Shown: piece after piece, positions 32,789 through 56,533 of the stretch
Numbering within the stretch: the stretch's first letter is position 1
How the letters are laid out: every line of letters starts with the position of its first letter
DNA from: Paremcibacter congregatus
Lineage (GTDB): Bacteria; Pseudomonadota; Alphaproteobacteria; Sphingomonadales; Emcibacteraceae
Direction: 5' to 3'
NCBI RefSeq assembly: GCF_006385135.1
Contig: NZ_CP041025.1
Coordinates: forward strand, 3,689,501 to 3,753,500
DNA: 64,000 nt
Position numbers and translations under genes: made by a program
The notes under the pieces: model-generated
Databases searched by the model: none
What the model was told of the DNA's origin: nothing
Seen by the model: only the letters and a program-made list of their open reading frames with translations

Positions 32789-33238
32789 TCAGGCCGCCAG
32801 GCCGACAATCTTGGCGCAGGCCATCAGCTTATCAAGGTAGGCGTTAAACGCCGAATGATAGGCCTTGTCCTCCAGATACTGTACGATATGGGCCCGCACC
32901 AGATCATAGGGCAGAACCTTCTCTGTGGTTTTGTCGACAAAGCGCAACTGATGCTGATCATAATAGCGCCTGCAGGTTTCTTCATCGGCCTCGGGCGTGG
33001 TGATGACGCTGTCGAGCAATTGACGGATCACGACTTCCACCTTTTCTTCCGGCAGATCGTCGAGATCCTTCGCGCTGACCATATCCTCAGCCGCCGCTTC
33101 TTCGAGCAGCAGCCGTTTGACCACCAGCGCCCGCGCCGCCTCTAGCCGCGCCGCCGCCAGATCCGGGGCCGGGTGATGCACCATCTCCTCATGGACGGCA
33201 TCATCACTGATTTCATATTTATTGACGAATACCGGCAT
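32789..33238 (-). CDS. Nar-operon parvulin-like protein lacking the catalytic domain
   Basis: 149 residues. In known operons (for example narK1K2GHJI of Pseudomonas aeruginosa) the gene after narI encodes a PpiC/NifM-type peptidyl-prolyl isomerase of about 250-290 residues. Here residues about 12-100 match the helical N-terminal part of that protein (LAAARLEAARALVVKRLLLE, then ETCRRYYDQHQLRF), and residues 105-149 match its C-terminal helices (VLPYDLVRAHIVQYLED...). The parvulin domain that should lie between them, with its HIL and GGDLG motifs, is absent. It may act as a holdase for NarG or be a remnant. It overlaps narI (TGATG), so it is cotranslated. Confidence 0.7.
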   Translation of the reverse strand: MPVFVNKYEISDDAVHEEMVHHPAPDLAAARLEAARALVVKRLLLEEAAAEDMVSAKDLDDLPEEKVEVVIRQLLDSVITTPEADEETCRRYYDQHQLRFVDKTTEKVLPYDLVRAHIVQYLEDKAYHSAFNAYLDKLMACAKIVGLAA

Positions 33239-33942
33239 CAGAATCCCTTTCCTCGTTTGCGGACAATTTGATAGCCTGACCGGAAGATATATTTCACCGG
33301 CACGCTGAGCATATGCACCAGACGGGTGAAGGGGAAGATCAGGAAGATGGTCAGGCCCAGGAAGATATGCGCCTTGAACACCCAGGGCTCATGCAGAATG
33401 AAATCGGCGGCTCCGCTACGGAAAGTCGCGATATGCTGGGCCCAGTTGCCAAGCGCCACCATGGAAGAGCCATCCAGATGCTGTGCCGAATAGAAGATTG
33501 AAATCAATCCTAAGATCAGCTGAATATACAGCAGCCACAGCAGCAGAATATCGGAGAACTTGCTGGTCGCCCGGATGCGCGGATCAGTCATGCGCCGCAC
33601 CAGAAGGATCGTCAGGCCGATAAAACAGATGCCGCCCAATATGCCGCCACCGACCATCGCCAGGATCTGTTTGGCCTCGGTGGTGATGACATAGTGATAA
33701 ACGGATTCCGGCGTTAACAGCCCCACCAGATGGGTGAAGAACAGCAGAATAATGCCAATATGGAACAGATTGCTGCCCAACCGCATGCCTTTCGAGCGCA
33801 AAATCTGGCTCGAGCCGGCTTTCCAGCTGTATTGATCCCGGTCATAGCGCAGGATTGAGCCCAGCACCATCACCAGAACGGCAAGATACGGATAGATTCC
33901 GAAGATCAGGTGATTAAGAAAAAGTGTGATGGATTCTGGCAT
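33238..33942 (-). CDS. narI: Respiratory nitrate reductase gamma subunit (cytochrome b)
   Basis: 234 residues from ATG 33942, which has GGAGG 8 nt upstream; an ATG at 33957 would overlap narJ. Five membrane spans with axial histidine candidates H61 and H71 (spacing 10, as for H56/H66 of E. coli NarI) and further His in the C-terminal half for the second heme b. It oxidises quinol at the periplasmic side and sends electrons to NarH. Position between narJ and the parvulin-like gene is canonical. Confidence 0.95.
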   Translation of the reverse strand: MPESITLFLNHLIFGIYPYLAVLVMVLGSILRYDRDQYSWKAGSSQILRSKGMRLGSNLFHIGIILLFFTHLVGLLTPESVYHYVITTEAKQILAMVGGGILGGICFIGLTILLVRRMTDPRIRATSKFSDILLLWLLYIQLILGLISIFYSAQHLDGSSMVALGNWAQHIATFRSGAADFILHEPWVFKAHIFLGLTIFLIFPFTRLVHMLSVPVKYIFRSGYQIVRKRGKGF

Positions 33943-33943
33943 G

Positions 33944-34660
33944 TCACTGACCTCCATTTAAATGTTGCGGTGCCGGATCGGTGAATTCCTTCAGGGCCTC
34001 GGCCGCGTTGGGGAAAGCGGAACAGCTGTTGCAATCGTCACCGGCAACGTCAGTATTGTCAAAAGCCGCTGCCTCTTCCCAGTCCTTGTCGATGTCTTCC
34101 GCCGTCAGTTCTTCCACTGGCGCGGCCTTGGCTTCGGCCATCATCGCCGCGTCGGGTTTAACGCGGGACAGAGATTCCAGCGCCTCGAAAATCACCGCAT
34201 AGGGGGCTTTACGTTTTTTCAGCTTGATGCCGATGGCGCCGATCACATTGATCGGATCGCCGAGCAGCTCCGTCGCCTCCTCTGCCGGGCAATGGGACAA
34301 AAACTCGAGAAACAGCGGCAGATAGTCAGGCAACTCGCCCGGGGTGATGTAAAAACCCTTTTCCGCATAGGCCTCGACCAGATTGACCATCGCCTGGCCC
34401 CGGTCGCGGCTTTCGCCGTGAATATGTTCAAACAGATGCAGACAATGGGCCCGCCCCCGGTCGAACAATTCGACATAGTCTTCCTGGATTTCATAGATGT
34501 CCCGCCCCTGAAGGGACCTCGCAAAGGCCGTTACCTTCTTCAACGCCCGTTTCGGCAGCAGGTTTTCCTGCGCCAGAACCGCGATCATCTCGTCCAGATG
34601 ATCAATGATTTCCGGTTTGGGGTAGGCCAGAAGCAGCCCTAAAATTTTAAAGGTCTTCAT
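33944..34660 (-). CDS. narJ: Nitrate reductase assembly chaperone NarJ
   Basis: 238 residues, all-helical, with the NarJ/TorD-type segment near YVELFDRGRAHCLHLFEHIHGES (about 62-84) and LPLFLEFLS near 115. NarJ binds NarG and guides Mo-cofactor and Fe-S insertion before NarGH joins NarI. The acidic C-terminus carries a Cys pair (DDCNSCS). It overlaps narH by 4 nt (ATGA) and ends 1 nt before narI. Confidence 0.93.
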   Translation of the reverse strand: MKTFKILGLLLAYPKPEIIDHLDEMIAVLAQENLLPKRALKKVTAFARSLQGRDIYEIQEDYVELFDRGRAHCLHLFEHIHGESRDRGQAMVNLVEAYAEKGFYITPGELPDYLPLFLEFLSHCPAEEATELLGDPINVIGAIGIKLKKRKAPYAVIFEALESLSRVKPDAAMMAEAKAAPVEELTAEDIDKDWEEAAAFDNTDVAGDDCNSCSAFPNAAEALKEFTDPAPQHLNGGQ

Positions 34661-36213
34661 GATTTGCTCCTTACTTTGCCCGACATGGTGTTTTTATGGG
34701 TTGAGCCGCCAAACAGATTAGGTCGGGTCTGACCCCCGTCACCACAGCCATTGCCGAAGCTAAAGCCACAACTTGAACGCTGTTCAAAGGCGATCTCGTT
34801 ATCAAACGGGGTCTCGCCGGCATATTCCCGATGATTTGTCGGAATGACGTAGCGGTCTTCATAATTGGCCAGCGCCATGATACGGTACATGTCGTCGAGG
34901 GTAACTTCATCAAGCCCCACCCGGTCAAGGATCTCGTTGTTGCTGACCCCCTCAACGGTCTTGCCGCGCATATATTCGCGCATGGCCAGCATACGCTCCA
35001 ATGCCTCGACCACCGGCTGTTCCTTGCCGCCGGTCAGCATATTGGCGAGATATTTCACCGGAATACGCAGATCGTTGACATCAGGAATAACACCGCTTTT
35101 TTCAAGCCGTCCGTCTTCCATGGCGGACTGGATCGGGGAGAGCGGCGGAATATACCACACCATTGGCAGGGTGCGATATTCCGGATGCAGCGGAAACGCC
35201 ACTTTCCATTCCATGGCCATTTTATAGACCGGGGAATTCCGCGCCGCTTCCATCCAGCTGTCGGGAATGCCGTCTTTCTTGGCCTGCTTGATGACCTCCG
35301 GATCATGGGGATCCATGAAGATATCGCACTGAGCCTGATAAAGGTCCTCGACATCTTCTTCAGACGCCGCCTCGGCGATGCGATCCGCATCATACAGCAA
35401 CACGCCGAGATAACGAATGCGGCCGACACAGGTTTCGGAACAGACCGTCGGGTCGCCTGCTTCCAGACGCGGATAACACAGGGTGCATTTCTCGGACTTG
35501 CCACTTTCCCAGTTGAAGTAAATCTTCTTGTAGGGACAACCACTGACGCACATGCGCCAGCCGCGACATTTTTCCTGATCTATCAACACCACGCCATCTT
35601 CTTCGCGTTTATAGATCGCGCCACTGGGACAGGCCGCCGCACAGGTCGGGTTCAGGCAATGTTCGCACAGCCGCGGCAAATACATCATGAATGTATTTTC
35701 GAACTGGCCGTAAATTTCCTTTTCCATCTGGGCGAAGTTGTAATCCTGAGAGCGTTTGGAAAATTCGCCGCCAAGGATTTCTTCCCAGTTGGGACCCCAT
35801 TCGACCTTCTCCATCACCTCGCCGGTGATCGCCGAATGAGCCCGGGCCGTCGGCGGGGTATGCACTTCGGGCGATTTCTGCAGCCGTTCATATTCAAAGG
35901 TGAAGGGCTCGTAATAATCGTCAATTTCCGGCAGGTCCGGGTTGGCGAACAGCTTCGCCAGCACCCGGAATTTACCGCCGATGCGCGGCTGCAGCTTGCC
36001 ATTCCCCAACCGGGTCCAGCCGCCGTTCCATTTGGTCTGGTTTTCCCAATCGCGGGGATAACCGACCCCAGGCTTGGTTTCCACGTTATTGAACCAGGCG
36101 TATTCCACGCCCTGACGCGAGGTCCAGACGTTCTTGCAGGTCACCGAACAGGTGTGACAACCAATGCATTTGTCCAGATTGAGGACCATTCCAATTTGAG
36201 CACGAATCTTCAT
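34657..36213 (-). CDS. narH: Nitrate reductase beta subunit (iron-sulfur)
   Basis: 518 residues. Cysteine groups for four clusters are visible: CIGCHTCSVTC near 19-29, CEHCLNPTCAAACP near 183-196, CRGWRMCVSGCP near 216-227 and CTLCYPR with CSETC near 243-265. The Trp in CRGW replaces a Cys, the known reason for one 3Fe-4S cluster in NarH. It carries electrons from NarI hemes to NarG. It overlaps narG by one base and narJ by four. Confidence 0.97.
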   Translation of the reverse strand: MKIRAQIGMVLNLDKCIGCHTCSVTCKNVWTSRQGVEYAWFNNVETKPGVGYPRDWENQTKWNGGWTRLGNGKLQPRIGGKFRVLAKLFANPDLPEIDDYYEPFTFEYERLQKSPEVHTPPTARAHSAITGEVMEKVEWGPNWEEILGGEFSKRSQDYNFAQMEKEIYGQFENTFMMYLPRLCEHCLNPTCAAACPSGAIYKREEDGVVLIDQEKCRGWRMCVSGCPYKKIYFNWESGKSEKCTLCYPRLEAGDPTVCSETCVGRIRYLGVLLYDADRIAEAASEEDVEDLYQAQCDIFMDPHDPEVIKQAKKDGIPDSWMEAARNSPVYKMAMEWKVAFPLHPEYRTLPMVWYIPPLSPIQSAMEDGRLEKSGVIPDVNDLRIPVKYLANMLTGGKEQPVVEALERMLAMREYMRGKTVEGVSNNEILDRVGLDEVTLDDMYRIMALANYEDRYVIPTNHREYAGETPFDNEIAFEQRSSCGFSFGNGCGDGGQTRPNLFGGSTHKNTMSGKVRSKS

Positions 36214-39200
36214 TATGCTAACTCCTCATGATTCAAATTGCCGGAAACGCCATCTGCGGGTTCATCCATCCAATCAACCTTATCCATCTTGCGACAGATG
36301 ACAAATTCATCGCGGTTTGATCCCACGGTGCCGTAATAGTTAAAACCATAAGACAGCTGGGCGTACCCGCCGATCATATGGGTCGGCTTGACCACCGCCC
36401 GGGTAACCGAGTTATGAATGCCGCCGCGCTTGCCGGTGGTTTCAGATCCCGGCGTGTTGATGATCTTCTCCTGGGCGTGATACATCATACACATACCCTC
36501 ATTCACCCGCTGCGAGACCACGGCCCGACAGGCAATGGCGCCATTAACGTTATAGAGCTCGATCCAGTCGTTGTCCTCGACCCCCATTTTCTGGGCGTCA
36601 ACTTCACTGATCCAGACGATCGGACCGCCGCGGGACAAGGTCTGCATCAGCAGATTTTCAGAATAGGTGCTGTGAATGCCCCATTTCTGATGCGGGGTGA
36701 TCCAGTTGAGCGCGATCTGCGGATTGCCGTTGCCCTTGCTGTCAATCACCGGTTTGGTGGTTTTGGTGTTGATTGGCGGCTTATAGACACAGAAGCCTTC
36801 ACCAAAATCGCGCATCCAGGCATGATCCTGATAGAATTGCTGACGCCCGGTGAGCGTCCGCCAAGGGATCAGTTCATGGACATTGGTGTAACCGGCGTTA
36901 TAGCTCACATGCTCATCTTCCAGCCCTGACCAGGTCGGGGAAGAGATGATCTTGCGCGGCTGGGCCTGAATGTCCCGGAAGCGGATTTTTTCATCCTCTT
37001 TCGGCAGGGCCAGATGCTTGTGATTGCGGCCGGTGATTTTTTCCAGCGCCCCCCAGGCCTTTACCGCCACCTGACCATTGGTCTCCGGCGCCAGCGACAG
37101 GATCACTTCCGTCGCATCAATATCCGTCTCAATACGCGGCAGCCCCTTCGAGACACCATTATCCGTCACCACCCGGTTTAGCTCGCCGAGGAATTTATAC
37201 TCGGGTTCGGTATTCCAGCTGATGCCTTTACCACCGTTGCCGATCTTGGTCATCAGAGGACCCAGGGCGGTGAACTTTTTGTAAGTATCAGGATAGTTGC
37301 GCACCACATCGATGTAAGACGGCATGGTTTTGCCCGGGATCGGGTCAACCTCACCCTTCTTCCATTCCTTGACGTCCAGCCCCTGAGCCAGTTCGGCCGG
37401 AGTATCATGCAGGATCGGCAGGGCCACCACATCGGTTTCTTCGCCCAGATGCCCCGGACACAGTTCGGAGAATTTCTTGGCGAATCCTTTATAGATATCC
37501 CAGTCGCTACGGCTTTCCCACGCCGGATCCACCGCCCGACTGAGCGGATGAATGAAGGGATGCATATCGGAGGTATTGAGGTCGTTCTTCTCATACCAGG
37601 TTGCTGATGGCAACACGATATCGGAATAAAGGCAGGTGGTGGACATGCGGAAATCGAGGGTCACCACCAGATCAAGCTTGCCTTCCGGCGCCGTCTCATG
37701 CCAGGCAACTTCGCTCGGGCGTTTGCCGCCGCGTTCGCCAATATCCTTGCCCAAAACCCCGTTCTGGGTGCCGAGCAGATGCTTCAGCATATATTCATGG
37801 CCTTTGCCGCTGGACCCCAGAATATTGGAGCGCCAGATGAACATGTTGCGCGGGAAGTTGCGCGGATCATCCGGATCTTCACAGGACATTTGCAGCGAAC
37901 CATCTTTCAGACGGCCGGCGATATAGTCTGCGGTAGATTTACCGGCCTCCTTGGCTTTTTTGGTGATTTCCAGCGGATTTTCCTGCAACTGCGGTGCGGA
38001 AGGCAACCAGCCCATGCGTTCTGACCGCACATTACAGTCGATCAGGGAATAATCTTCCCATTTCTTCTTGTCGGCCAGCGGCGAGAGAATTTCATCAACC
38101 CCGAGTTTCTCATAGCGCCACTGGTTGGCGTGATTATAGAAGAAACTGGTGGAATTCATATGCCGCGGCGGACGGTGCCAGTCGAGCGCGAAGGCCAGTG
38201 GCTGCCAGCCGGTTTGCGGCCGCAGTTTTTCCTGACCAACATAATGAGCCCAACCGCCGCCGGATTTACCGATACAGCCACACATCACCAGCATATTGAT
38301 CACACCACGATAGTTCATATCCATGTGATACCAGTGATTCATGGCGGCCCCGATGATGATCATCGACCGGCCCCGGGTCTTGTCGGCATTGTCAGCGAAT
38401 TCACGGGCGACCTTGATCACTTTTTCGCGGGACACGCCGGTGATTTTTTCCTGCCAGGCCGGAGTGTATGGCTTGTCGTCATCATAGCTTTGCGCGACAT
38501 TATCGCCGCCGAGGCCACTGTCGACGCCATAGTTGGCGATCATCAGATCATAAACGGTGGCGACATATTTATCGCCGTCGCGGGTTTTGATTTTCCGCAC
38601 CGGAATATTATGATGCAGGATACTGTCATGATCTGTCGCCTGGAAAATCGGCTGTTCATGTTCCAGATTGCCAAAATACGGGAAGGCGACGGACAGGACT
38701 TCATCATGTTTCTTGACCAGGGATTTCAGCGGCCAGATTTCATTGCCGTCTTTCAGGTCCTTGGATTCCAGATTCCATTTGCCTTCTTCGCCCCAACGGG
38801 AACCGATCGTGCCGTTTGGCACCACGACCTCGTCCGTATTGGCGTCAATCATGGCTGTCTTCCACTCGGGATTATTTTTATACCCCAGATTGTCTTCAAA
38901 ATCGGAAGCCCGCAGGGTGCGGCCGGCGACATAGGTGCCGTCCTGCTCGTCAATCTGCACCAGCATCGGCATATCGGAATAGAGCCGGGTGTAATCGTCA
39001 AAATAATCACTTTGACGATCCACATGGAATTCTTTCAGGATCACATGACCCATGGCCATCGCCATGGCGGCGTCGGTGCCCTGACGCGGGTTAAGCCATA
39101 TGTCGCTGAGCTTCGCCACTTCACTATAGTCCGGCGTCACGGCAACGGTCTTGGTGCCTTTATAGCGCACTTCGGTGAAGAAATGGGCGTCCGGCGTCCG

Positions 39201-39983
39201 GGTCTGCGGCACGTTGGAGCCCCAGGCCATGATATAGGAACTGTTATACCAGTCGGCGCTTTCCGGCACGTCGGTCTGCTCGCCCCAAACCTGCGGTGAG
39301 GCCGGCGGCAAATCGCAATACCAGTCATAGAAGCTCATGCAGGTGCCGCCGATCAGCGACAGATAGCGGGAGCCCGCGGCATAAGACACCATGGACATGG
39401 CGGGAATGGGCGAGAAGCCGATCACCCGGTCCGGGCCGTAGGTTTTGGCGGTATAGATATTGGCGGCGGCGATGATCTCGTTGACCTCGTCCCAGTCAGC
39501 GCGCACCAGCCCACCAAGGCCGCGCACCTGTTTGTAGGAATTGGCCTTTTCCTTATTCTCCACGATATTAGCCCAGGCCAGCACCGGATCGGAATAGACA
39601 TTTTTTGTCTCGCGCCACATCTTCAACAGGCGACTGCGGATCATCGGATGTTTCAGGCGGGCGGAGCTATAGAGATACCAGCTGTAACTGGCGCCACGGG
39701 CGCAGCCGCGCGGTTCATGGTTCGGCAGATCATTGCGGGTGCGGGGGTAATCGGTCTGCTGGGTTTCCCAGGTGACCAGACCGCCCTTGACGTAGATCTT
39801 CCAGCTACAGGAGCCGGTGCAGTTCACCCCATGGGTGGAGCGCACGATTTTATCATGGGACCAGCGTCCCCGATAAGCCCGCTCCCAACTGCGGTCCTCT
39901 TCTGTTGTGATCCCATGGCCGTCGGAAAATGTTTCCGGCTTTTCTCTGGTCAGAAAAGTCATTTTATCCAGAAAATGGCTCAT
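36213..39983 (-). CDS. narG: Respiratory nitrate reductase alpha subunit (molybdenum catalytic)
   Basis: 1256 residues, the catalytic subunit reducing nitrate to nitrite at the cytoplasmic face. The FS0 ligands H51, C55, C59 and C94 (HxxxCxxxC then C) match the NarG-type histidine-ligated cluster. The Asp in CDLPPASP (about residue 224) appears to align with the Mo-ligating Asp222 of E. coli NarG. Mo-bisMGD contacts such as AWGSNVPQTRTPDAHF follow. Length is normal. It is the first reductase gene after narK1K2 and needs Mo cofactor, for which moaA, moeA and modABC lie nearby. Confidence 0.98.
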   Translation of the reverse strand: MSHFLDKMTFLTREKPETFSDGHGITTEEDRSWERAYRGRWSHDKIVRSTHGVNCTGSCSWKIYVKGGLVTWETQQTDYPRTRNDLPNHEPRGCARGASYSWYLYSSARLKHPMIRSRLLKMWRETKNVYSDPVLAWANIVENKEKANSYKQVRGLGGLVRADWDEVNEIIAAANIYTAKTYGPDRVIGFSPIPAMSMVSYAAGSRYLSLIGGTCMSFYDWYCDLPPASPQVWGEQTDVPESADWYNSSYIMAWGSNVPQTRTPDAHFFTEVRYKGTKTVAVTPDYSEVAKLSDIWLNPRQGTDAAMAMAMGHVILKEFHVDRQSDYFDDYTRLYSDMPMLVQIDEQDGTYVAGRTLRASDFEDNLGYKNNPEWKTAMIDANTDEVVVPNGTIGSRWGEEGKWNLESKDLKDGNEIWPLKSLVKKHDEVLSVAFPYFGNLEHEQPIFQATDHDSILHHNIPVRKIKTRDGDKYVATVYDLMIANYGVDSGLGGDNVAQSYDDDKPYTPAWQEKITGVSREKVIKVAREFADNADKTRGRSMIIIGAAMNHWYHMDMNYRGVINMLVMCGCIGKSGGGWAHYVGQEKLRPQTGWQPLAFALDWHRPPRHMNSTSFFYNHANQWRYEKLGVDEILSPLADKKKWEDYSLIDCNVRSERMGWLPSAPQLQENPLEITKKAKEAGKSTADYIAGRLKDGSLQMSCEDPDDPRNFPRNMFIWRSNILGSSGKGHEYMLKHLLGTQNGVLGKDIGERGGKRPSEVAWHETAPEGKLDLVVTLDFRMSTTCLYSDIVLPSATWYEKNDLNTSDMHPFIHPLSRAVDPAWESRSDWDIYKGFAKKFSELCPGHLGEETDVVALPILHDTPAELAQGLDVKEWKKGEVDPIPGKTMPSYIDVVRNYPDTYKKFTALGPLMTKIGNGGKGISWNTEPEYKFLGELNRVVTDNGVSKGLPRIETDIDATEVILSLAPETNGQVAVKAWGALEKITGRNHKHLALPKEDEKIRFRDIQAQPRKIISSPTWSGLEDEHVSYNAGYTNVHELIPWRTLTGRQQFYQDHAWMRDFGEGFCVYKPPINTKTTKPVIDSKGNGNPQIALNWITPHQKWGIHSTYSENLLMQTLSRGGPIVWISEVDAQKMGVEDNDWIELYNVNGAIACRAVVSQRVNEGMCMMYHAQEKIINTPGSETTGKRGGIHNSVTRAVVKPTHMIGGYAQLSYGFNYYGTVGSNRDEFVICRKMDKVDWMDEPADGVSGNLNHEELA

Positions 39984-40062: not shown

Positions 40063-41679
40063 TCAAGGGTTTTTCACATAAGCGCCGGGGCGCAGGTAAA
40101 ACCACCAGTTAATCACGATACAAATGCCGTAGAAGACCGCGAAACCATAGAGCGCGAGCTCCGGTGTCGCTGCCTTGATTTCTTCGCCCAGCACCTTTGG
40201 AATAATGAAGGCGCCGTAAGCCGCCACCGCAGAGGTCCAGCCCAGAACCGGCCCGGCCTGTTCGCGGTCAAACACCATGGCGATGGTCCTGAAGGTGGAC
40301 CCGTTGCCAATGCCGGTTGCGGCAAAGAGGATCAGGAACAGGATCAGGAAAGGAATGAAATATTCCTGCGGCGTGGCGGAGGCATAAGCCTGTTTCATGA
40401 AATAGGCCACGCCGAGAGCGCTCGCCACCATCACGATGGAGATATACTGTGTCACCCGCGCACCGCCGAGTTTGTCGGCGATCATGCCACCCACCGGTCG
40501 GATCAGGGCGCCGATAAAGGGGCCTGTCCAGGCGAACATCAGGGCGCTGGGACCAGCGGGATTGGGGGTATTATGGGTCAGTACGCCATCCACCACAAGA
40601 TGCTGGAAGCCGAAGATCACCTTGATCGACAGACCGAAGGCCGCCGCAAAACCGATGAAGGATCCAAAGGTCATGGTATAGATGACGGTCATCGCCCAGG
40701 TGTGTTTATTGTTGAAGATTTTATATTGCCGCTTCAGGTTACTGCCCACTTCACCGGGGATCAGTTTGAGCAGAAAGACGGTAAAAGCAATCACCAGCGG
40801 CAGCACGATCCATTTGCTGATGCCGAAACCGGATGTCGGCAGACCGCTGGTGGTTTGCGGCAGCATCAGCCACAACCCACTGGCGGCGGCGACGAAACCC
40901 AGAACCAGCATGAAGGAAATTTTGGCAAAAGCCCCAAGCGGATTACCGACATTAGGCGAAACATGCTCATCGGTGATGTTGTTCATGCCCCACCAGCCGG
41001 CAAAAGCCAGCGGTACCAGAAACAGCAGCCAGACAAAGCCTGCGTTCTGGATATAGGTTTCGGTGCCCGCCGGAATTTTACCGATCAGGGTGCCGCTGGT
41101 ATTCTGCAGGATCATCGGCTCGCCCCCGAAGATACCGATAGTCATGAACAATGGCACCAGAATCTGCATGGTGGTCACGCCGAAATTGCCAAGGCCGGCA
41201 TTCATGCCCAGAGAATACCCCTGAACTTTTTTCGGAAAGAAAAAGCTGATATTGGACATGGAGGAGGCGAAGTTACCGCCGCCAAAACCGGACAGGAAGG
41301 CCAGAATCTGGAACTGCCACAACGGTGTATTAATGTCCTGCAGCGCAAAGCCGGTCCCGATCGCCGGGATCATCAGCAACGCCGTGGTGAAGAAAATGGT
41401 GTTTCTCCCGCCGGCGATACGGATGAAGAACGTACTCGGGATGCGCAACGTCGCGCCAGTCAGACCGGCAATCGCCATCAGAGTAAACAGTTCCCCCTTG
41501 GCGATGGGGAAGCCCAGATTGAGCATCTGAACCGTAATGATGCCCCAATAGAGCCAGACCGCAAAGCCACAGAGCAGGCTCGGGATCGAAATCCACAGAT
41601 TGCGGTTGGCGATGGTTTTCCCGCGGCTTTCCCATTCTGCGGGATCCTCCGGGTTCCATTGTTCAATATCTTTGGCCAT
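40063..41679 (-). CDS. narK2: Nitrate/nitrite transporter, NarK2 type
   Basis: A 538-residue MFS protein with 12 spans and a cytoplasmic N-terminal extension (MAKDIEQWNPEDPAEWESRG). The nitrate signature region reads FGGGNFASSMSNISFFFPKK near 150, and a second Gly-rich signature (GNGSTFRTIA) lies near 455. NarK2-type proteins are mainly nitrate/nitrite antiporters. It is paired with the NarK1-type gene upstream; in some bacteria the two are fused into one protein. It lies 79 nt before narG on the same strand. Confidence 0.9.
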   Translation of the reverse strand: MAKDIEQWNPEDPAEWESRGKTIANRNLWISIPSLLCGFAVWLYWGIITVQMLNLGFPIAKGELFTLMAIAGLTGATLRIPSTFFIRIAGGRNTIFFTTALLMIPAIGTGFALQDINTPLWQFQILAFLSGFGGGNFASSMSNISFFFPKKVQGYSLGMNAGLGNFGVTTMQILVPLFMTIGIFGGEPMILQNTSGTLIGKIPAGTETYIQNAGFVWLLFLVPLAFAGWWGMNNITDEHVSPNVGNPLGAFAKISFMLVLGFVAAASGLWLMLPQTTSGLPTSGFGISKWIVLPLVIAFTVFLLKLIPGEVGSNLKRQYKIFNNKHTWAMTVIYTMTFGSFIGFAAAFGLSIKVIFGFQHLVVDGVLTHNTPNPAGPSALMFAWTGPFIGALIRPVGGMIADKLGGARVTQYISIVMVASALGVAYFMKQAYASATPQEYFIPFLILFLILFAATGIGNGSTFRTIAMVFDREQAGPVLGWTSAVAAYGAFIIPKVLGEEIKAATPELALYGFAVFYGICIVINWWFYLRPGAYVKNP

Positions 41680-41703: not shown

Positions 41704-43014
41704 TTATGATTTGATATTATCCAGTTCCGGCAGATAACGCGGCCCATTCAGGTCCGGCATATCCCGACGGTTCATCCGGATGATGGCGAAATGCATCCAG
41801 ACCAGAGCGATGCCGATCAGGACGGTGAGCAGCATGAAACAGCTTGTCCACACCCCGATCAGATCATTCATGACCCCAAACGTAATCGGCAGGAAGAAAC
41901 CGCCCAGGCCGCCAATCAGACCGACCACGCCACCGACGGACCCCACATGACCGGGATAATAGACCGGAATATGTTTGTAGACCGCCGCCTTGCCCAGCGA
42001 CATGAAGAAGCCCAGCACAATGGTCAGTGACACGAACAGCCACAAAGGAATGGTGATATTGAAACTGATTGGCCCCTGAATACCGGCAACGGTATAATCT
42101 GTCGCAGGATAAGACATGATGAAGGTACAGGCGACACAGACACCGAACGTCCAGTACATCACCCGACGGGCGCCGATCTTGTCGGATAACCAGCCGCCCA
42201 ATGCCCGGAAGATACTGCCCGGCAACGCATAGGCCGCCGCCAGCATACCGGCGGTTTTAAGGTCGAGACCGTAAGCCCCGACATAATAGCGCGGTAGCCA
42301 CAGAGCCAGCGCGACAAAGGCGCCAAAAACAAAGAAATAATAGAGAGAAAAACGCCAGACCTGAAGATTTTTCAGCGGCTCCATCTGCTCCAGAAAAGAG
42401 GCGTGCTTGATGCCTTGCTCGCGCCGGGCCCGTAACGCCGGATCGTCCTTGGTAAAGAGAAAATACAGAACCGCTGTCACCAGCAACACCGCGGAATAGA
42501 TCTGCGCCACGCCCTGCCACTGGCCGTCCATCATGATCAGAAGGAAAGGTGCGCCAAAGTTGGTCACCGCCGCCCCCACATTGCCCATCCCAAAAATGCC
42601 AAGCGCTGTACCCTGGCGTTCTTTCTGATACCAGGTGGACACATAGGCGATGCCAACGGCAAAACTGCCGCCCGCCAGACCAAGCCCGAGCGCCGCCACC
42701 AGAAACATCGGATAGGTCGACACCTTGGTCAGTAAAAAGGCCGCCAACGCCGTGACCACCATCTGAAAAGTATAGACAATCCGCCCACCATATTGGTCGG
42801 CCCAGACGCCGAGAAAAATCCGGCTTAAGGACCCCGTCAGAATCGGCGTCGCCACCAGAATCCCGAACTCGGTATCGGAAAGACCCAACTGTGTTTTAAT
42901 TTTAAGGCCGATAATGGAGAAAATAGTCCAGACTGCAAAACAGACCGTAAAGGCCAGTGTACTGGCGATCAAGGCTTGTTTCTGTTCCCCCGGTGTTACA
43001 TTTAAAGCATTCAT
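41704..43014 (-). CDS. narK1: Nitrate transporter, NarK1 type
   Basis: A 436-residue MFS protein from ATG 43014 (AAGGGA upstream); an in-frame ATG at 43029 has no such site. Twelve spans, with the nitrate signature GLAGGSFAVGIAYVSTWY near 110-127 and a second Gly-rich repeat GGVVGLIGGLGGFFLP near 365. NarK1-type carriers are thought to be proton-coupled nitrate importers. First gene of the nar transcript: a Fnr-like palindrome and a -10 element lie directly upstream (43064-43105). Confidence 0.92.
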   Translation of the reverse strand: MNALNVTPGEQKQALIASTLAFTVCFAVWTIFSIIGLKIKTQLGLSDTEFGILVATPILTGSLSRIFLGVWADQYGGRIVYTFQMVVTALAAFLLTKVSTYPMFLVAALGLGLAGGSFAVGIAYVSTWYQKERQGTALGIFGMGNVGAAVTNFGAPFLLIMMDGQWQGVAQIYSAVLLVTAVLYFLFTKDDPALRARREQGIKHASFLEQMEPLKNLQVWRFSLYYFFVFGAFVALALWLPRYYVGAYGLDLKTAGMLAAAYALPGSIFRALGGWLSDKIGARRVMYWTFGVCVACTFIMSYPATDYTVAGIQGPISFNITIPLWLFVSLTIVLGFFMSLGKAAVYKHIPVYYPGHVGSVGGVVGLIGGLGGFFLPITFGVMNDLIGVWTSCFMLLTVLIGIALVWMHFAIIRMNRRDMPDLNGPRYLPELDNIKS

Positions 43015-43063
43015 TGTGAATCCCTTCATATCCCGAACATAATCACGCTTTTATGAGGGTTGA

Positions 43064-43105
43064 ACATTAGGAGGAAGTTGGTCAATTGCATTTGACCTTT
43101 ATCAA
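43064..43105 (-). promoter_or_regulatory. Fnr-type activator site and -10 element of the narK1 operon
   Basis: A palindrome TTGAC-CTTT-ATCAA at 43092-43105 (consensus TTGAT-N4-ATCAA). Read on the minus strand, TAATGT (43069-43064) follows with 32 bp between centres, which places the palindrome at about -41.5 to -42.5 from the inferred start point. This is the class II activator geometry. A leader of about 40 nt precedes narK1. The regulator encoded next door has the matching E-xx-SR recognition helix. Confidence 0.75.
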
Positions 43106-43231: not shown

Positions 43232-44815
43232 ATGAATAAGACGCTTCTTTATCTTGGCAACGCCTTACACCAAATGCAGGCGGAACGCGGCTGCGCAGTG
43301 CTTTTCACCAGCAGCAAGGGCACTCTCTTTAGAGATGAACTGGAGACGGTATTTGAACAGTCCGCTGCAGCATTCAATGTGGTGCGCGAGAAACTCAAAG
43401 AATGGCATAACGTCCACGCCTTTGATGATGATTTTCTCAACAAGATAGAAGTCGTACTGGACAACTGCGAGACCGTAAAGTCCCGCCGCAACCGTATTCT
43501 CAACCTAGAATTCAACCCGACAGAAATCATTAGCGGCTATAGCCACAATGTCATCAGTCCCCTGATCGACCTGATGGTTCTGGTGGCCCTGTTTAATAAA
43601 GACAACGATCCGGCCAAGATCAGCGCCTATTCCTACTTCCTGCAATTAAAGGAAAAATTTGGCCGGGAACGCGCCCTCGGCGCCCGTGGTCTGGTGACCA
43701 AATCATTCGAGAATCGCGAATTCCTTGACCGGTTCCGGTTTCTGGTATCCGAACAGAACAGTTTCAAGCGCACCTTTTTCGCCATGGCCGACGACCAGCA
43801 GAAACATGTTTACGACAGTATCATGCAAGGCAATGCGGTGCAGAAACTCACCGAACTGCATGACAGCTTCAAACCAGGCCATAAAACATCCGCGCCCGCC
43901 CTGACACCACAAGACTGGTTTGGGATGACTTCGGAGAAAATGGACCTGATGAAAACGGTTGAGGAAAAACTGGCGGAAACCTTGGAAAAGGACGCCGGTC
44001 TCTCCCCGGATCAATCTTCACTTCCCCGCATTCAGGTGACCCGTCAGGTCGACGGCATCACCACCGAGCAACGGAATTTCATTGAAGAGCTGCCCTTCTT
44101 TATCAATCTGCCGGAAGACATTCTGACCGGGCTGCTGCAGCATGCCCAGGTGCGGGAATATAAAAAAGGCAAACTCCTGTTTCTTGAAGGCGAGGTCTCC
44201 AGCCGTCTGCACATCATGCTCAGCGGCTGGGTGAAATTGTTCAAGGGCACCGCCCAGGGTGAAGAAACCGTCATGCAGATGCTGTCCAGCGGTGATATGA
44301 TTTCAGAATCATCTGTGTTTCTCAACGCCAACTATCCGGTCAGCGCCCAGGTGGCGAAACAGGCCGTGATTCTGACCCTGCCGGCGCCGATCATACGTGA
44401 ACGCATCAAGGAACATAACGAACTGGCGCTACGGGTTGTCGCCAGTATGTCGAAGAACTCCCACACCCTGATCCAGGAATTCGAGAATATCCGCCTGAAA
44501 CCGGCCACCGAACGGGTCGGCTGGTTCCTGCTGAAACTGCTGCTGGAACAGGGCCAGGTGCCGGACCTGATCGAATTGCCTTATGACAAATCTCTCATCG
44601 CCTCCTATCTGGATATGAAGCCGGAAACCTTTTCCCGCACCCTGAAGCGCTTTCGCGACAATGGATTCGAGATCAGCAAGAATTCGGTTATCCTGCCAAA
44701 TATTAATGCACTCTGCGGGTTTTGTGACCATGATCTTGCCTCAGGATGTGACAAACACGGCACCCCCGCATGTCCCAATCCCGATTGCGATCAGGACCTC
44801 AACGCGGATTTTTAA
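43232..44815 (+). CDS. NIT-domain Crp/Fnr-family regulator with cysteine-rich tail
   Basis: 527 residues in three parts. (1) Residues about 1-250 match the all-helical NIT nitrate/nitrite-sensing domain: Q16-AERG with the conserved Arg19, and KEKFGRERALGARG from 140, the second arginine-bearing element. (2) Residues about 285-410 form a cNMP-binding-type barrel (LEGEVSSRLHIMLSGWVKLF). (3) Residues about 425-490 form a Crp-type winged helix whose recognition helix has E465-TF-S468-R469, the Fnr form that reads TTGAT. The last 33 residues hold C495, C498, C506, C514 and C519. E. coli Fnr ligates its cluster at the N-terminus, but Bacillus Fnr uses C-terminal cysteines. Diverges from narK1, and moaA follows. 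Likely a nitrate-responsive activator of the nar/mo genes. Confidence 0.88.
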   Translation: MNKTLLYLGNALHQMQAERGCAVLFTSSKGTLFRDELETVFEQSAAAFNVVREKLKEWHNVHAFDDDFLNKIEVVLDNCETVKSRRNRILNLEFNPTEIISGYSHNVISPLIDLMVLVALFNKDNDPAKISAYSYFLQLKEKFGRERALGARGLVTKSFENREFLDRFRFLVSEQNSFKRTFFAMADDQQKHVYDSIMQGNAVQKLTELHDSFKPGHKTSAPALTPQDWFGMTSEKMDLMKTVEEKLAETLEKDAGLSPDQSSLPRIQVTRQVDGITTEQRNFIEELPFFINLPEDILTGLLQHAQVREYKKGKLLFLEGEVSSRLHIMLSGWVKLFKGTAQGEETVMQMLSSGDMISESSVFLNANYPVSAQVAKQAVILTLPAPIIRERIKEHNELALRVVASMSKNSHTLIQEFENIRLKPATERVGWFLLKLLLEQGQVPDLIELPYDKSLIASYLDMKPETFSRTLKRFRDNGFEISKNSVILPNINALCGFCDHDLASGCDKHGTPACPNPDCDQDLNADF

Positions 44816-44859: not shown

Positions 44860-44901
44860 TTGACCTGCGTCAACACTGGCTTTCTGTGTTCAGGTTAGAT
44901 A
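44860..44901 (+). promoter_or_regulatory. Fnr-like palindrome and -10 element upstream of moaA
   Basis: A perfect dyad TTGAC-CTGC-GTCAA at 44860-44873, then TAGATA at 44896-44901 with 32 bp between centres. The spacing equals that of the narK1 site, so the dyad would lie at about -41.5 of a start near 44908. The leader to the moaA start codon would be about 177 nt. No other -35-like hexamer is evident. Confidence 0.65.
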
Positions 44902-45084: not shown

Positions 45085-46062
45085 GTGGAGTTAAAAGACA
45101 ATTACGATCGGGCGTTCCCTTATTTGCGCCTTTCGATCACCGACGTGTGCAATTTCCGTTGCGAATATTGCCTGCCCGACGGCTATCACTGTGACAGCAA
45201 ACCGAAATTCCTCGACCAGGACGAAATTCGCCGGCTGGTGACCGCCTTTGCCGAACTTGGCGTCTGGAAAATCCGCCTCACCGGCGGCGAGCCCAGCGTC
45301 CGCAAAGATTTCACCGAAATCACCAAACTCGTGTCCGGCATCGATGGCATTGATGCCATGGCCTTCACCACCAACGGCTACCGCCTGAAACAGAATGCCA
45401 CGACCTGGTATGAGGCGGGCATGCGGCGCATCAATGTCAGCATCGACAGCCTGAATCCTGAGAAATTCCACGAGATCACCGGCCATAACCGGCTGCCGGA
45501 AATTCTCGAAGGCGTCGAGAAATCCCTTGAGATCGGTTATGACAGCGTGAAAATCAATGTGGTGCTGCTCAAAGGTCTTAATGATCAGGAACTGCCCGAT
45601 TATCTTGCGTACGTTAAAGACCGTCCGATCACCGTGCGGTTTATCGAACTGATGCAGACCGGTGATAATCTCGCCTATTTCAAGCAGCGCCATTTGTCCG
45701 CCGATGTGATCCGTCAGCAATTGCTAGATCAGGGCTGGGTCGAGAATATCCGCGAGAATGGCGCAGGCCCGGCGGTGAATTTCACCCATCCCGATTATCA
45801 GGGCGCCATCGGCCTGATCGCCCCCTACTCGAAAGATTTTTGTACGAACTGCAACCGGCTGCGGGTTACCGCCACCGGTGATCTGCGCCTGTGTCTGTTC
45901 GGTGACGTGGGCGTGCCTCTGCGGGATCTGCTCGCGCGCGATGATCAGAAGGAAGCCCTGCAGATGCGGATCATGAAGCAGTTGAACTATAAAAAATCGT
46001 CCCATTTTCTCGCCGACGGCAATACCGGTATTCTGCCCAATCTGTCGGCCACGGGCGGCTAA
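45085..46062 (+). CDS. moaA: GTP 3',8-cyclase MoaA (molybdopterin synthesis)
   Basis: A 325-residue radical SAM enzyme catalysing the first step of molybdenum cofactor synthesis, GTP to cyclic intermediate. The N-terminal SAM cluster is CNFRCEYC (Cx3Cx2C, from residue 22) and the C-terminal cluster is CTNCNRLRVTATGDLRLC (Cx2Cx13C, near 255). The SAM-binding TGGEP is present and the protein ends in the conserved Gly-Gly. The start is GTG 45085 with AAGGAGAG upstream. moeA follows after 11 nt. A moaA copy linked to nar genes is also seen in Pseudomonas (moaA1). Confidence 0.95.
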   Translation: MELKDNYDRAFPYLRLSITDVCNFRCEYCLPDGYHCDSKPKFLDQDEIRRLVTAFAELGVWKIRLTGGEPSVRKDFTEITKLVSGIDGIDAMAFTTNGYRLKQNATTWYEAGMRRINVSIDSLNPEKFHEITGHNRLPEILEGVEKSLEIGYDSVKINVVLLKGLNDQELPDYLAYVKDRPITVRFIELMQTGDNLAYFKQRHLSADVIRQQLLDQGWVENIRENGAGPAVNFTHPDYQGAIGLIAPYSKDFCTNCNRLRVTATGDLRLCLFGDVGVPLRDLLARDDQKEALQMRIMKQLNYKKSSHFLADGNTGILPNLSATGG

Positions 46063-46073
46063 GGAGACCCCCT

Positions 46074-47327
46074 ATGCTGTCCTATCATGAAACACTGGAC
46101 ATCATTCTGAACGCGGCGACACCCCGCGCACCCCAGAAGATGGCCCTGGATCACCTGACGGGGTTGGTGGCCGGTGAAACCCTGACCGCCGACGCCCTGG
46201 TCCCGCCCTTTGACAATTCCGCCATGGATGGCTTTGCCGTCCATAGCGACCAGATCGCCGGGACAACAAGGACGCACCCCGTCGTCCTCACGGTTGATGG
46301 CAGCACCATGGCCGGCGACAGACCGGCGACAGGCCAAAGAGGGGCCTGGGAAATCATGACCGGCGCTCCGGTGCCCAAAGCCTACGACGCCGTGATCCGC
46401 ATTGAGGACAGCGTCATTCTTGAGCAGGACGACGCCGGACGACCAACCCGGATCGCCATCACCGTCAGCGGCTTCCCCGGCAAGAATATCCGCAAAGCCG
46501 GCACCGATTTTGCCCCCGGCGATCGCCTGCTCGACAAGGGAATGCGTATCGGCCCGCCCCAGATCATGGCGCTCGCGGCTCTGGGGCAGGATCAGGTCTC
46601 CGTTATCCCCGCCCCGCGCGCGGCGGTCATCAGCACAGGCAAGGAACTGGTTGATGACATGGATCAGCCGCTGAAACCTGGCCAAATCCATAACAGCAAT
46701 GCGCCTTACCTGCTGGCGGGACTGCGGGCCCATGACTGCCCGGCGGTCAATGCCGGGACCATCTTTGACGACCCGGAAAAATTTGATCAGAAAATCAACG
46801 CTCTGAGGCAACAGGATTTCGACCTGATTCTGTCCTCTGGCGCGGTATCCATGGGCCGCCATGATTTCATACCCGACGGGTTGCGACGTCAAGGCGCCGA
46901 AATCCTGTGTCATAAAGCCGCGATTCGTCCGGGCAAGCCAATCCTGTTTGCCCGTTTGCCCGATGGCGCCTTTTATTTTGGTCTGCCCGGCAATCCCATC
47001 GCCGCCGCCGTGGGCATGCGGTTCTTCGCCTATCCCCTGATCCGCAAGCTGCGCGGGCAACGCCCGGAAACTCCGTTGATCGCCCGATTGAAAAATGCCT
47101 TCACCAAGGAATCGCCGTTTCGTTTTTTTCAGAAAGCCCGCTGCCACCGCGACTCCGAAGGGCAACTGCATGTAGAAGTTCTGCCGGGACAGGAATCCTA
47201 CAAGATCAGCCCCCTGCTGCAGCAAAATTGCTGGGCGGTGATTCCGGAAACAGGTCTCAACCTCCGGGCCGGTCATCTGGTGGATGTCTATCCCCTGTTC
47301 CCGGAAAGCGAAGGAGGTTTTCTCTGA
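46074..47327 (+). CDS. moeA: Molybdopterin molybdenumtransferase MoeA
   Basis: 417 residues with the MoeA layout: an N-terminal part with PPFDNSAMDGFAVHS near 44-58, TGAPVP near 97 for the nucleotide site, a central MogA-like domain with STGKELVDD near 187 and SSGAVSMGRHDF near 258, PGKPILFARL near 285, and a C-terminal beta domain. It inserts molybdate into adenylated molybdopterin. It lies 11 nt after moaA and shares its last base with the next gene (TGATG), so the three form an operon. Confidence 0.95.
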   Translation: MLSYHETLDIILNAATPRAPQKMALDHLTGLVAGETLTADALVPPFDNSAMDGFAVHSDQIAGTTRTHPVVLTVDGSTMAGDRPATGQRGAWEIMTGAPVPKAYDAVIRIEDSVILEQDDAGRPTRIAITVSGFPGKNIRKAGTDFAPGDRLLDKGMRIGPPQIMALAALGQDQVSVIPAPRAAVISTGKELVDDMDQPLKPGQIHNSNAPYLLAGLRAHDCPAVNAGTIFDDPEKFDQKINALRQQDFDLILSSGAVSMGRHDFIPDGLRRQGAEILCHKAAIRPGKPILFARLPDGAFYFGLPGNPIAAAVGMRFFAYPLIRKLRGQRPETPLIARLKNAFTKESPFRFFQKARCHRDSEGQLHVEVLPGQESYKISPLLQQNCWAVIPETGLNLRAGHLVDVYPLFPESEGGFL

Positions 47328-54015: not shown

Positions 54016-54783
54016 ATGCGCGGCGGAATTTGGTTATTTGTCCTACTGACAGGAATGGTGGCGATGATGTCGACGGCCCGGGCCGAACAGCTCACGGTCG
54101 CCGTGGCATCGAACTTCGCCCCGGTCATGAAAGCCATCATCCCCTCGTTTGAACAACAGACCGGCCATCAGGTAAAACTGATCTTCGCTTCCTCGGGCAA
54201 GATTTACGCCCAGATCCGCCACGGCGCGCCCTATGACATGTTCTTCTCCGCCGATCAGAAAACCCCCCAGGCTTTGGAACGCGACGGAAAAACCCTGTCC
54301 GGCAGCCGCCTGACCTATGCCATTGGCCGACTGGCGCTATGGTCGCCAAAAACCGGCCTCGCACTGAACGATGGCCAAATACTCGCCGACGACCAGATCA
54401 AGAAACTGGCCATCGCCAACCCCCGGCTGGCCCCTTATGGTCTGGCGGCGCAGGAAGTTCTTCAGGCTCTTGGGCTGTGGGACAAGGTGGCGCCGCGGTT
54501 GGTGCGTGGCGAGAATATCGCCCAGACCTATCACTTTGTCAGCAGCAGTAATGCCGATCTTGGCTTTGTGGCCCTGTCACAGGTGCGCCAGAACGGCGCC
54601 GGCACCTGTTGGGTCATTCCCGACAGCCTTTATAGCCCTCTTCGGCAAGACGCCGTGATTCTGAAACATGCCGGGCAAAATCCGGCGGCGCCCGCCCTGC
54701 TCGCCTATCTGCAGCAGCCAGACGTGCGCCGCACCCTGAAGGCCTTTGGCTATCGTCTACCCGAAACAAAGGGCGACTCATGA
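54016..54783 (+). CDS. modA: Molybdate ABC transporter substrate-binding protein
   Basis: 255 residues with a signal peptide ending TARA before EQLTVAVA. The mature start TVAVASNFAPVMKAI, then IFASSGKIYAQIRHGAPYDMFFSADQ, carries the Ser residues of the molybdate pocket. It is periplasmic and captures molybdate for ModBC. It overlaps modB by 4 nt. The Mo supply fits NarG and MoaA/MoeA encoded upstream. I found no convincing ModE/Mop box in the 108-nt gap before it. Confidence 0.95.
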   Translation: MRGGIWLFVLLTGMVAMMSTARAEQLTVAVASNFAPVMKAIIPSFEQQTGHQVKLIFASSGKIYAQIRHGAPYDMFFSADQKTPQALERDGKTLSGSRLTYAIGRLALWSPKTGLALNDGQILADDQIKKLAIANPRLAPYGLAAQEVLQALGLWDKVAPRLVRGENIAQTYHFVSSSNADLGFVALSQVRQNGAGTCWVIPDSLYSPLRQDAVILKHAGQNPAAPALLAYLQQPDVRRTLKAFGYRLPETKGDS

Positions 54784-55466
54784 GCTTTTCAGACGCCGAC
54801 CTCACGGCCCTGTGGCTGACCTTCCGACTGGCGAGTGTAACCACCCTGTTGCTGTTGCTCTGCGCCACGCCACTGGCCCTGTGGCTCGCCCGCACCCGGT
54901 CCCGCCTCAAGGGCCCGATCAGCGCCTTGGTCGCCCTGCCGCTGGTTTTGCCGCCCACGGTACTCGGTTTCTATCTGCTGATTCTGCTGGGGCCGGAAGG
55001 ACCGGGCGGCAAACTGACCGAAGCTCTGGGCCTCGGCACCCTGCCCTTTACTTTCTGGGGACTCGTGGTGGCCTCGATGCTTTATTCCCTGCCCTTTGTG
55101 GTCCAGCCGATCCAGAATACAGTCGAGAGCCTGGGCCCGCGTCCGATAGAGGTCGCCGCCACCTTGCGCGCCGGCCCCTGGGACCGGTTTTTCTCCGTCA
55201 TTCTGCCGCTTGGCAAGTCTGGCTTCCTCACCGCCACCATTCTCGGCTTCGCCCATACGGTAGGAGAGTTCGGCGTCATCCTGATGGTCGGCGGCAACAT
55301 TCCCGGCGAAACTCAGGTGATTTCGGTGCAGATTTACGATCATGTGGAAGCCATGGACTATGATCAGGCCCACGGCCTGTCTGCCGCGATGGTGATTTTT
55401 TCATTCCTGGTGTTGACCGCCGTCTACAGTTTCAATCGTCGCAGAAATTCCGGGGGGGTCTTATGA
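54780..55466 (+). CDS. modB: Molybdate ABC transporter permease
   Basis: 228 residues, five to six membrane spans, with the ABC permease EAA-like loop EVAATLRAGPWDRFFSVILPL near 120-140 and the typical LPLVLPPTVLGFYLL near 52-66. It forms the inner-membrane channel and couples to ModC. It overlaps modA and modC by 4 nt each. Confidence 0.95.
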   Translation: MSFSDADLTALWLTFRLASVTTLLLLLCATPLALWLARTRSRLKGPISALVALPLVLPPTVLGFYLLILLGPEGPGGKLTEALGLGTLPFTFWGLVVASMLYSLPFVVQPIQNTVESLGPRPIEVAATLRAGPWDRFFSVILPLGKSGFLTATILGFAHTVGEFGVILMVGGNIPGETQVISVQIYDHVEAMDYDQAHGLSAAMVIFSFLVLTAVYSFNRRRNSGGVL

Positions 55467-56533
55467 GCCTGCAGATTAAACTTAACGCCTCCCGCCAGGC
55501 TTTTCCGTTAGACATCGACCTTACGCTGCCGGATCAGGGCGTCACGGCGATCTTCGGCCCGTCCGGCGCCGGCAAAACCAGTCTGCTGCGCGCCATCGCC
55601 GGACTGGATCACCTGACTGACGGCGAAGTGCGGTTCCGTGATCAGGTCTGGCAAGACGGAAAGCTGTTCCAGCCCCCTCATAAACGCCCGCTCGGCTATG
55701 TCTTTCAGGAAGCCAGCCTGTTTCCCCATCTGAGCGTCCAGCAAAATATCGATTATGGCCGCAAACGGGTGACACAGGGGGTCACCGGTGCGGATTATGA
55801 CCAGATTATTGCCCTGCTCGGGCTGGAGAATTTCCTGTCCCGGCGACCGGGCCAACTGTCCGGTGGTGAGAAGCAACGGGTCGCCATCGCCCGCGCACTG
55901 GTGCTCAATCCCGCCCTTCTGTTAATGGATGAACCCATGGCCTCCCTCGACAGTGGCCGCAAGCAGGAAATTCTATGCTATCTGGAAAAACTTAAAATCA
56001 GCCTCTCCGTCCCCATGCTTTATATCAGTCACGACATGAATGAAGTAACGCGTCTCGCCGATCATTTGGTGATCCTTGAAGGGGGCCGGGTATGTCATCA
56101 GGGACCCTTGGCGCAGGTGCTCGCCCGGCATGAGACGCTCGCCGCCTATTGCGACAGCCCCTTCAGCCTGCTGATCGGCCGTGTGATCACCCCCCGCAAC
56201 AGCCACCATCTGACGGAAGTCGCCGTCGGGGATCATGTCATTCGTCTGCCGCAGCAGGCCGTAGCGTCGGGTCAGGAAATCCGCCTGCATCTCGCCGCCA
56301 AGGATATCAGTCTGACCCTGCATGAAGCTATCGAAACCAGCGTGCTCAATATCCTGCCCTGTGTAATTGATCAGCTTGACCCCTCCACGCCCGATGGTCA
56401 GTGTCTGGTGCATCTCCGATTAGGAGATCACCAGATTCAGGCGCAACTGTCCGCCTATTCCTGCGCCTACCTTGGCCTACATCCAGGGCAAAGGGTCTTC
56501 GCCCAGATCAAGGCCATTTCTCTGGTGCACTAG
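55463..56533 (+). CDS. modC: Molybdate ABC transporter ATP-binding protein
   Basis: 356 residues. Walker A GPSGAGKTS near 32, signature LSGGEKQR near 133, Walker B LLMDEP near 153, and switch His in YISHDMNE near 190. The C-terminal 65 residues (about 290-356) are a TOBE/Mop domain binding oxyanions, with SVLNILPCVIDQLDPS at its start. It energises molybdate uptake. The stop lies 3 nt from the convergent LysE gene. Confidence 0.95.
   Translation: MSLQIKLNASRQAFPLDIDLTLPDQGVTAIFGPSGAGKTSLLRAIAGLDHLTDGEVRFRDQVWQDGKLFQPPHKRPLGYVFQEASLFPHLSVQQNIDYGRKRVTQGVTGADYDQIIALLGLENFLSRRPGQLSGGEKQRVAIARALVLNPALLLMDEPMASLDSGRKQEILCYLEKLKISLSVPMLYISHDMNEVTRLADHLVILEGGRVCHQGPLAQVLARHETLAAYCDSPFSLLIGRVITPRNSHHLTEVAVGDHVIRLPQQAVASGQEIRLHLAAKDISLTLHEAIETSVLNILPCVIDQLDPSTPDGQCLVHLRLGDHQIQAQLSAYSCAYLGLHPGQRVFAQIKAISLVH

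Follow-up and report, generated by a model that had tools for sequence, protein, structure and literature searches.

A NIT domain joined to a Crp/Fnr module: a predicted one-component nitrate-responsive regulator beside the nar and moa genes of Paremcibacter congregatus

The window is a 64,000-nucleotide stretch of the Paremcibacter congregatus genome (contig NZ_CP041025.1, positions 3,689,501 to 3,753,500), and coordinates below refer to it. An open reading frame with an ATG start at 43232-44815 (+) encodes a protein of 527 amino acids in which a NIT domain is fused to a Crp/Fnr regulator. The gene diverges from narK1-narK2-narGHJI on one side and has moaA-moeA downstream on the other. On the minus strand, narK1 (41704-43029) is a NarK-family transporter by its best NCBIfam match, below cut-off, and narK2 (40063-41679) is NarK/NarU-like, again below cut-offs. 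Then come narG (36213-39983, TIGR01580), narH (34657-36213, TIGR01660), narJ (33944-34660, TIGR00684) and narI (33238-33957, TIGR00351). On the plus strand moaA, encoding GTP 3',8-cyclase (45085-46062, TIGR02666 above cut-off), is followed by moeA (46074-47327). A likely molybdate ABC transporter, with a solute-binding protein and an ATPase carrying a TOBE domain, lies near these molybdenum genes at 54016-56533.

The fusion protein matches three Pfam models above their cut-offs, as had been anticipated from the sequence alone. The NIT domain (residues 11-251, 43262-43984, +) matches PF08376 with E = 8.3e-37 and 128.3 bits (cut-off 24.9). The cNMP_binding beta-roll (residues 308-394, 44153-44413, +) matches PF00027 with E = 2.8e-15 and 56.5 bits (cut-off 27.5), and HTH_Crp_2 (residues 427-495, 44510-44716, +) matches PF13545 with E = 3e-10 and 40.4 bits (cut-off 27). 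This last domain includes the helix E465-T-F-S468-R469, and E-x-x-S-R is an FNR-type recognition helix. With cNMP_binding and HTH_Crp domains and the FNR-type ExxSR, the protein has the features of the Crp/Fnr family. The sequence-only reading had placed a NIT domain in residues 1-250 and a Crp/Fnr output in residues 285-490, and both assignments are upheld. No NCBIfam cut-off was reached by the protein, the best models being FtrB-type Crp. An ANTAR output is absent, Pfam giving cNMP_binding and HTH_Crp_2 instead, and a search of the genome (4.19 Mb, one contig) at E <= 0.001 gave no second NIT match. The translation reproduces every motif and cysteine position given earlier, with QAERG at residue 16, KEKFGRERALGARG at residue 140 and cysteines at 495, 498, 506, 514 and 519. 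Beyond these the protein has two cysteines, C21 and C79, both within NIT and neither conserved. No other cysteine precedes residue 495, and there is no Fnr-type cysteine motif just before the beta-roll.

We examined conservation in an alignment of 37 sequences, comprising the window protein and 36 homologues and leaving aside five duplicate records (L083-L087, six proteins). Q16, E18 and R19 are conserved in each of the 36 rows that have residues at these positions. G144 and R147 are kept in 36 of 37 sequences, and E465, S468 and R469 are invariant (37/37). The linker at residues 252-283 is variable, with a mean majority identity of 0.30. A later find outside the 37, in genome G805 (L089), has both nitrate motifs described below and the same four tail cysteines. 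At the level of sequence the NIT-Crp/Fnr fusion is confirmed as real and not a product of chance.

The NIT domain resembles that of NasR. Residues 11-248 align with the NasR structure 4akk using phmmer (E = 2e-4). An AlphaFold2 model of the fusion, built with 8 sequences, has a mean pLDDT of 67, with values of 69-95 by tens of residues in NIT. Comparison of the model with 4akk_B gave Z = 27.9 and an rmsd of 3.1 over 252 aligned residues, the next row having Z = 12.6; a Foldseek search placed 4akk_B at rank 48 by E-value, behind Crp chains. Prediction of the N-terminus thus gave no unrelated fold. QAER and GRER of the fusion align with QCER and GQER of NasR, and we take Q16-x-x-R19 (43277-43288, +) and G144-x-x-R147 (43661-43672, +) as the first and second halves of a predicted nitrate site, hereafter the nitrate boxes. 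In the passages on NasR in PMC8199190, the G-x-x-R nitrate motif retains its two arginines, with glutamine in place of one glycine; the fusion has the same asymmetric Q-x-x-R/G-x-x-R arrangement. E146-R147 of the fusion align with E175-R176, which are predicted pocket residues of NasR in the relevant part of PMC7496416. By these alignments the NIT domain is a NasR-type sensor with both halves of the predicted nitrate site.

Full-length fusions, judged by the query range covered, are found in 34 of 99 genomes of the order, including all 11 of the genus. With at most three candidates scored per genome, a scan of the class gave matches at E <= 1e-20 in 70 of 385 genomes, and among the matches listed only the window's genome and G294 span both parts. 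A phylum scan scored in the same way gave three of 398 genomes at E <= 1e-50, all within the class. NarG (E <= 1e-200) is present in 46 of the 99 order genomes, being all 34 that have the fusion and 12 of the 65 others, three of these 12 having only 46% NarG identity. Fisher's test of this association, which ignores kinship, gave 1e-16. In genus g285, seven genomes have both the fusion and narG and nine have neither. The sequence fetched around NIT-Crp includes a nar gene at 32 of 37 loci and moaA at 23. The five loci lacking one are L003, L051, L062, L064 and L078. L003 and L051 are cut by contig or stretch ends, and L051, where the contig ends and only a 76-residue NarG piece is visible, was counted as having no nar gene.

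Some of these genomes serve as a natural test. No nar gene lies within 8 kb of the G425 fusion, which retains Q-x-x-R and shows C144 and F147 at its second box. In its relative G407 the Crp part alone remains, and in G428, which has no narG, there is just a 77-aa open stretch of the fusion's end. G425, G407 and G469 have another nar type with a NarG identity of 71-72%, where a solo four-cysteine Crp occupies the divergent slot (L108-L110). With a NIT-Crp gene that is away from nar or decayed, this looks like replacement. NIT-Crp copies in G437 and G469 lie beside cbb3 oxidase genes with nitrate boxes intact, so nar is not the sole likely target. The G390 protein also keeps both nitrate boxes, with no nar gene on its stretch. 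We count the loss of G-x-x-R in G425, away from nar, in favor of a nitrate-dependent activator of nar, while the boxes kept in G469 and G390 without nar on the stretch would argue against a strict rule. In G393 and G399 narK is adjoined by a NarR-like solo Crp and not by the fusion, and in three further narG loci of the order (L111-L113) a solo Crp with no tail is in the divergent slot.

In the nar loci of G393 and G399 (L079, L080) the NarR-like solo Crp and the NIT-Crp gene are found together, beside mobA-like and porin-like genes. A second NIT-Crp copy at L061:10152-11717 and the gene at L062:654-2219 lie beside hemN-like, usp and cbb3 oxidase genes, and both loci have two FNR-type boxes before the oxidase.

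We searched for binding sites with the pattern TTGAY-N4-RTCAA, which has 43 perfect matches genome-wide versus six for the reversed pattern. Just two fall within the window, and they flank the fusion gene. One predicted FNR-type palindrome, TTGACCTTTATCAA (43092-43105), is in the regulator-narK1 spacer, and the other, TTGACCTGCGTCAA (44860-44873), is in the regulator-moaA spacer. The linkage to nar and mo genes noted earlier from the sequence holds, with predicted boxes before both adjoining gene sets. Among 39 loci, an FNR-type box is present in 27 of 28 narK spacers, 21 of 23 moaA spacers and one of nine spacers that separate NIT-Crp from a porin-like gene, and the reversed control is found in none of 60 spacers tested; the relatives' ORFs were bounded with a greedy longest-ORF script, and 60 nt was added to both ends of every spacer. 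Among the narK spacers L073 fails, its narK having been split. A box is found on the far side of the porin-like gene in L057-L060, L063, L079 and L080. The letters of the box were tried as a means of separating Fnr targets from those of NIT-Crp and rejected, C being present in 55 of the 104 half-sites next to NIT-Crp and 34 of 86 genome-wide.

By consensus likeness only, a -10-like TAATGT of narK1 (43064-43069, -) is 22 nt from its box, giving a -41.5 spacing, and a weak -10-like element of moaA (44896-44901, +) has the same offset. An offset of 22 nt corresponds to the -41.5 arrangement used by class II activators. In the related loci, 22 nt is the best offset toward narK (mean score 2.60 of 6, against 1.78 with sd 0.38 over all offsets; 30 boxes) and toward moaA (2.90, against 1.66 with sd 0.43; 21 boxes), counts in which sequences are related and one spacer may contribute several boxes. 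Toward NIT-Crp the best offset is 9, with 22 second at 2.37 (mean 1.93, sd 0.26). As offset 22 is also high in that direction, the -10 signal is not specific. Scans for sigma-70 promoters and terminators were at the level of shuffled sequence. The predicted box spacing before narK1 and moaA suits class II activation. Downstream of the second box, a molybdenum-cofactor riboswitch (RF01055, 44943-45095, +; 68.9 bits, gathering 36) forms the moaA leader and overlaps the moaA start. It is present in seven of eight related loci scanned, L072 having none. With box followed by riboswitch, expression of moaA would answer first to nitrate and afterwards to the level of the cofactor.

Taken together these features make it quite probable that the fusion is a cytoplasmic one-component activator of the nar and moa genes, responsive to nitrate or nitrite. 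From the domains, the predicted sites and the linkage, all of which can be read in the DNA, we infer a ligand, a direction of control and a coupling through the linker. Nitrate or nitrite would bind between R19 and R147 in a NIT dimer, and the ligand-bound NIT would alter the presentation of the Crp dimer via the variable linker. The Crp dimer would then bind the two predicted boxes and recruit RNA polymerase. One protein could thereby raise Nar, the transporters and molybdenum-cofactor synthesis together, with the riboswitch limiting moaA once cofactor suffices.

The same boxes might have another owner. An Fnr-like protein, recognized in the genome by its N-terminal C-x2-C-x7-C, could bind the same sites as the fusion. 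Loss of Fnr was rejected on finding it, and the earlier suggestion that the fusion replaces Fnr is not supported. Were the boxes to belong to Fnr, NIT-Crp would regulate something else or only fine-tune nar, and its linkage would reflect ancestry; the FNR consensus of the sites and their number in the genome would fit such an arrangement. But the fusion is gained and lost together with narG, its nitrate boxes are intact and its ExxSR invariant, and several nar locus types have a Crp regulator in the divergent slot, although BLAST found none there at L114 and L116-L118. We therefore regard ownership by Fnr as unlikely. The fusion might instead shut nar off when nitrate is absent, as a repressor or an autoregulator. 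This would be in keeping with a box that is also in the regulator's own upstream region, and with the fairly high score of offset 22 toward NIT-Crp, yet the -41.5-like spacing is best toward both narK and moaA, as expected of class II geometry. Such a role appears very improbable. As for NarXL, which the fusion had also been proposed to replace, the genome gave no match to the NarX/NarQ-type PilJ sensor domain, where of 14 control genomes E. coli was positive; the expected lack of such a sensor is thus corroborated. According to the part of PMC8139620 on this subject, alphaproteobacteria have no identified NarXL homologues, the function of NarXL being taken over by NarR, so such replacement is not peculiar to this genome.

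The C-terminal tail C495-x2-C498-x7-C506-x7-C514 (44714-44773, +) has exactly this spacing in all 37 aligned homologues. C519 is a cysteine in only 19 of the 37, which leaves four conserved cysteines in the tail and not five. The sequence-only reading had described five; its first four stand, as do the arginines of the nitrate boxes, and the fifth is discarded. An identical spacing is found in twelve solo Crp proteins (L066, L090-L095, L097, L098, L108-L110), so the tail is independent of NIT, and the solo Crp of L096 has four tail cysteines at another spacing. The tail is present in five of 28 solo loci L004-L031; L090-L099 were chosen from the class scan for matches into or near the tail and do not constitute a census. 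Nine of 13 solo four-cysteine proteins adjoin nar genes (L093-L098, L108-L110). That of L090 has ompW on one side, and one unassigned ORF and then a COX1-type oxidase on the other, while the neighbors at L091 and L092 are ribosomal proteins, an aldo-keto reductase and a solute-binding protein. On a quick Crp-domain tree without bootstrap, with tail columns cut and 74 of 80 rows used (duplicates, fragments and poorly bounded ORFs being left out), the tail label needs two changes and the NIT label three. This is consistent with one fusion and later losses.

The four-cysteine tail is probably a metal site. It has no Pfam match at E <= 1, and its pLDDT in the AlphaFold2 model is below 50. Its C-x2-C-x7-C spacing is shared with the genome's Fnr-like protein, whereas the spacing of the whole tail is not the one known from Bacillus Fnr. 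Zinc, too, could be bound by four cysteines this close together with a C-x2-C among them. That the tail forms a structural zinc site or a redox disulphide pair, and lacks both an Fe-S cluster and O2 or NO sensing, has close to an even chance of being correct. This would agree with the lack of a Pfam match, and O2 may be covered by Fnr already, whose N-terminal cysteine motif means that oxygen sensing needs no tail. Such a site concerns the tail only, and is compatible with nitrate control. Against it, tailed solo Crp proteins adjoin nar clusters and one lies near ompW and a COX1-type oxidase, such genes often being under oxygen control, and the C-x2-C-x7-C spacing equals that in the Fnr-like protein. 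On balance an Fe-S cluster with O2 or NO dependence is somewhat more likely than structural zinc, though weakly so. A two-input AND gate in one polypeptide, with nitrate or nitrite entering via NIT and oxygen or NO via a new kind of C-terminal four-cysteine cluster (C-x2-C-x7-C-x7-C), is a tentative proposal to which we give rather less than even chances. If it is true, oxygen control is built into the nar regulator itself, and the cluster defines a Crp/Fnr subfamily, solo or NIT-fused, that is common at alphaproteobacterial nar loci.

The fusion shares with NasR of Klebsiella oxytoca, a NIT-ANTAR antiterminator, the NIT fold, the QxxR and GxxR boxes and a one-component design. The output of NasR is an RNA-binding ANTAR domain, whereas that of the fusion is a DNA-binding Crp/Fnr module, and NasR is linked to assimilatory nas where the fusion is linked to respiratory nar and moa. 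The nearest solved Crp domains by sequence are SPOA0323 of Ruegeria pomeroyi (3fx3/3h3z) and DNR (3dkw). Their chains of 227-237 residues leave no room for NIT, unlike the fusion, and the aligned part of 3fx3/3h3z has no cysteine tail. We know of no NIT domain in Bacillus subtilis Fnr. As described in parts of PMC8139620 and PMC12937710, that protein is a Crp/Fnr regulator with a C-terminal [4Fe-4S]; the tail of the fusion, a probable metal site, is likewise C-terminal. The cluster of Bacillus Fnr has three cysteine ligands (from the title of a reference in PMC12937710), where the fusion has four invariant cysteines.

NarR of Paracoccus is also of the Crp/Fnr family with a nitrate-linked role, and in a narR mutant denitrification from nitrate nearly stops (both from passages of PMC3541799). 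It responds to nitrate or nitrite, in passages on NarR that leave its mode of sensing unstated. In Sphingopyxis granuli a NarR-like ftrB is divergent from narU, with two Fnr sites (PMC7713065, in the part concerned). The NarR-like protein of P. ferrooxidans, annotated as a cyclic nucleotide-binding protein only and taken as NarR from its place, occupies the same slot as the fusion, divergent from narK-narGHJI. It has neither NIT nor the four-cysteine tail, and is 30% identical over the Crp part. On the quick tree it groups with the solo Crp of G393 (SH-aLRT 95) and with a Crp from Azospirillum (99), and the NIT rows are on another branch (90) of a weakly supported fork (87). Orthology with NarR was rejected on this placement. 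By analogy, the fusion would function as NarR and sense as NasR.

No description of a NIT-Crp/Fnr fusion was among the literature matches listed, from a search lying mostly outside subscription journals, which agrees with the earlier statement that none was known; nor does 'NIT' occur as a whole word in the CRP/FNR family survey PMC12531629. The fusion gives NIT a DNA-binding Crp/Fnr output, and would be a natural nitrate biosensor that uses neither a membrane kinase nor a phosphorelay. A subfamily of cysteine-tailed Crp/Fnr regulators at nar loci is also suggested. Since the regulator in the NarR slot carries a recognizable nitrate receptor, whether nitrate directly controls a Crp/Fnr activator can be tested using a single purified protein and two short promoters.

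Elsewhere in the window and apart from the nar cluster, 27226-28824 (-) encodes a chemotaxis signaling domain followed by a PilZ domain.
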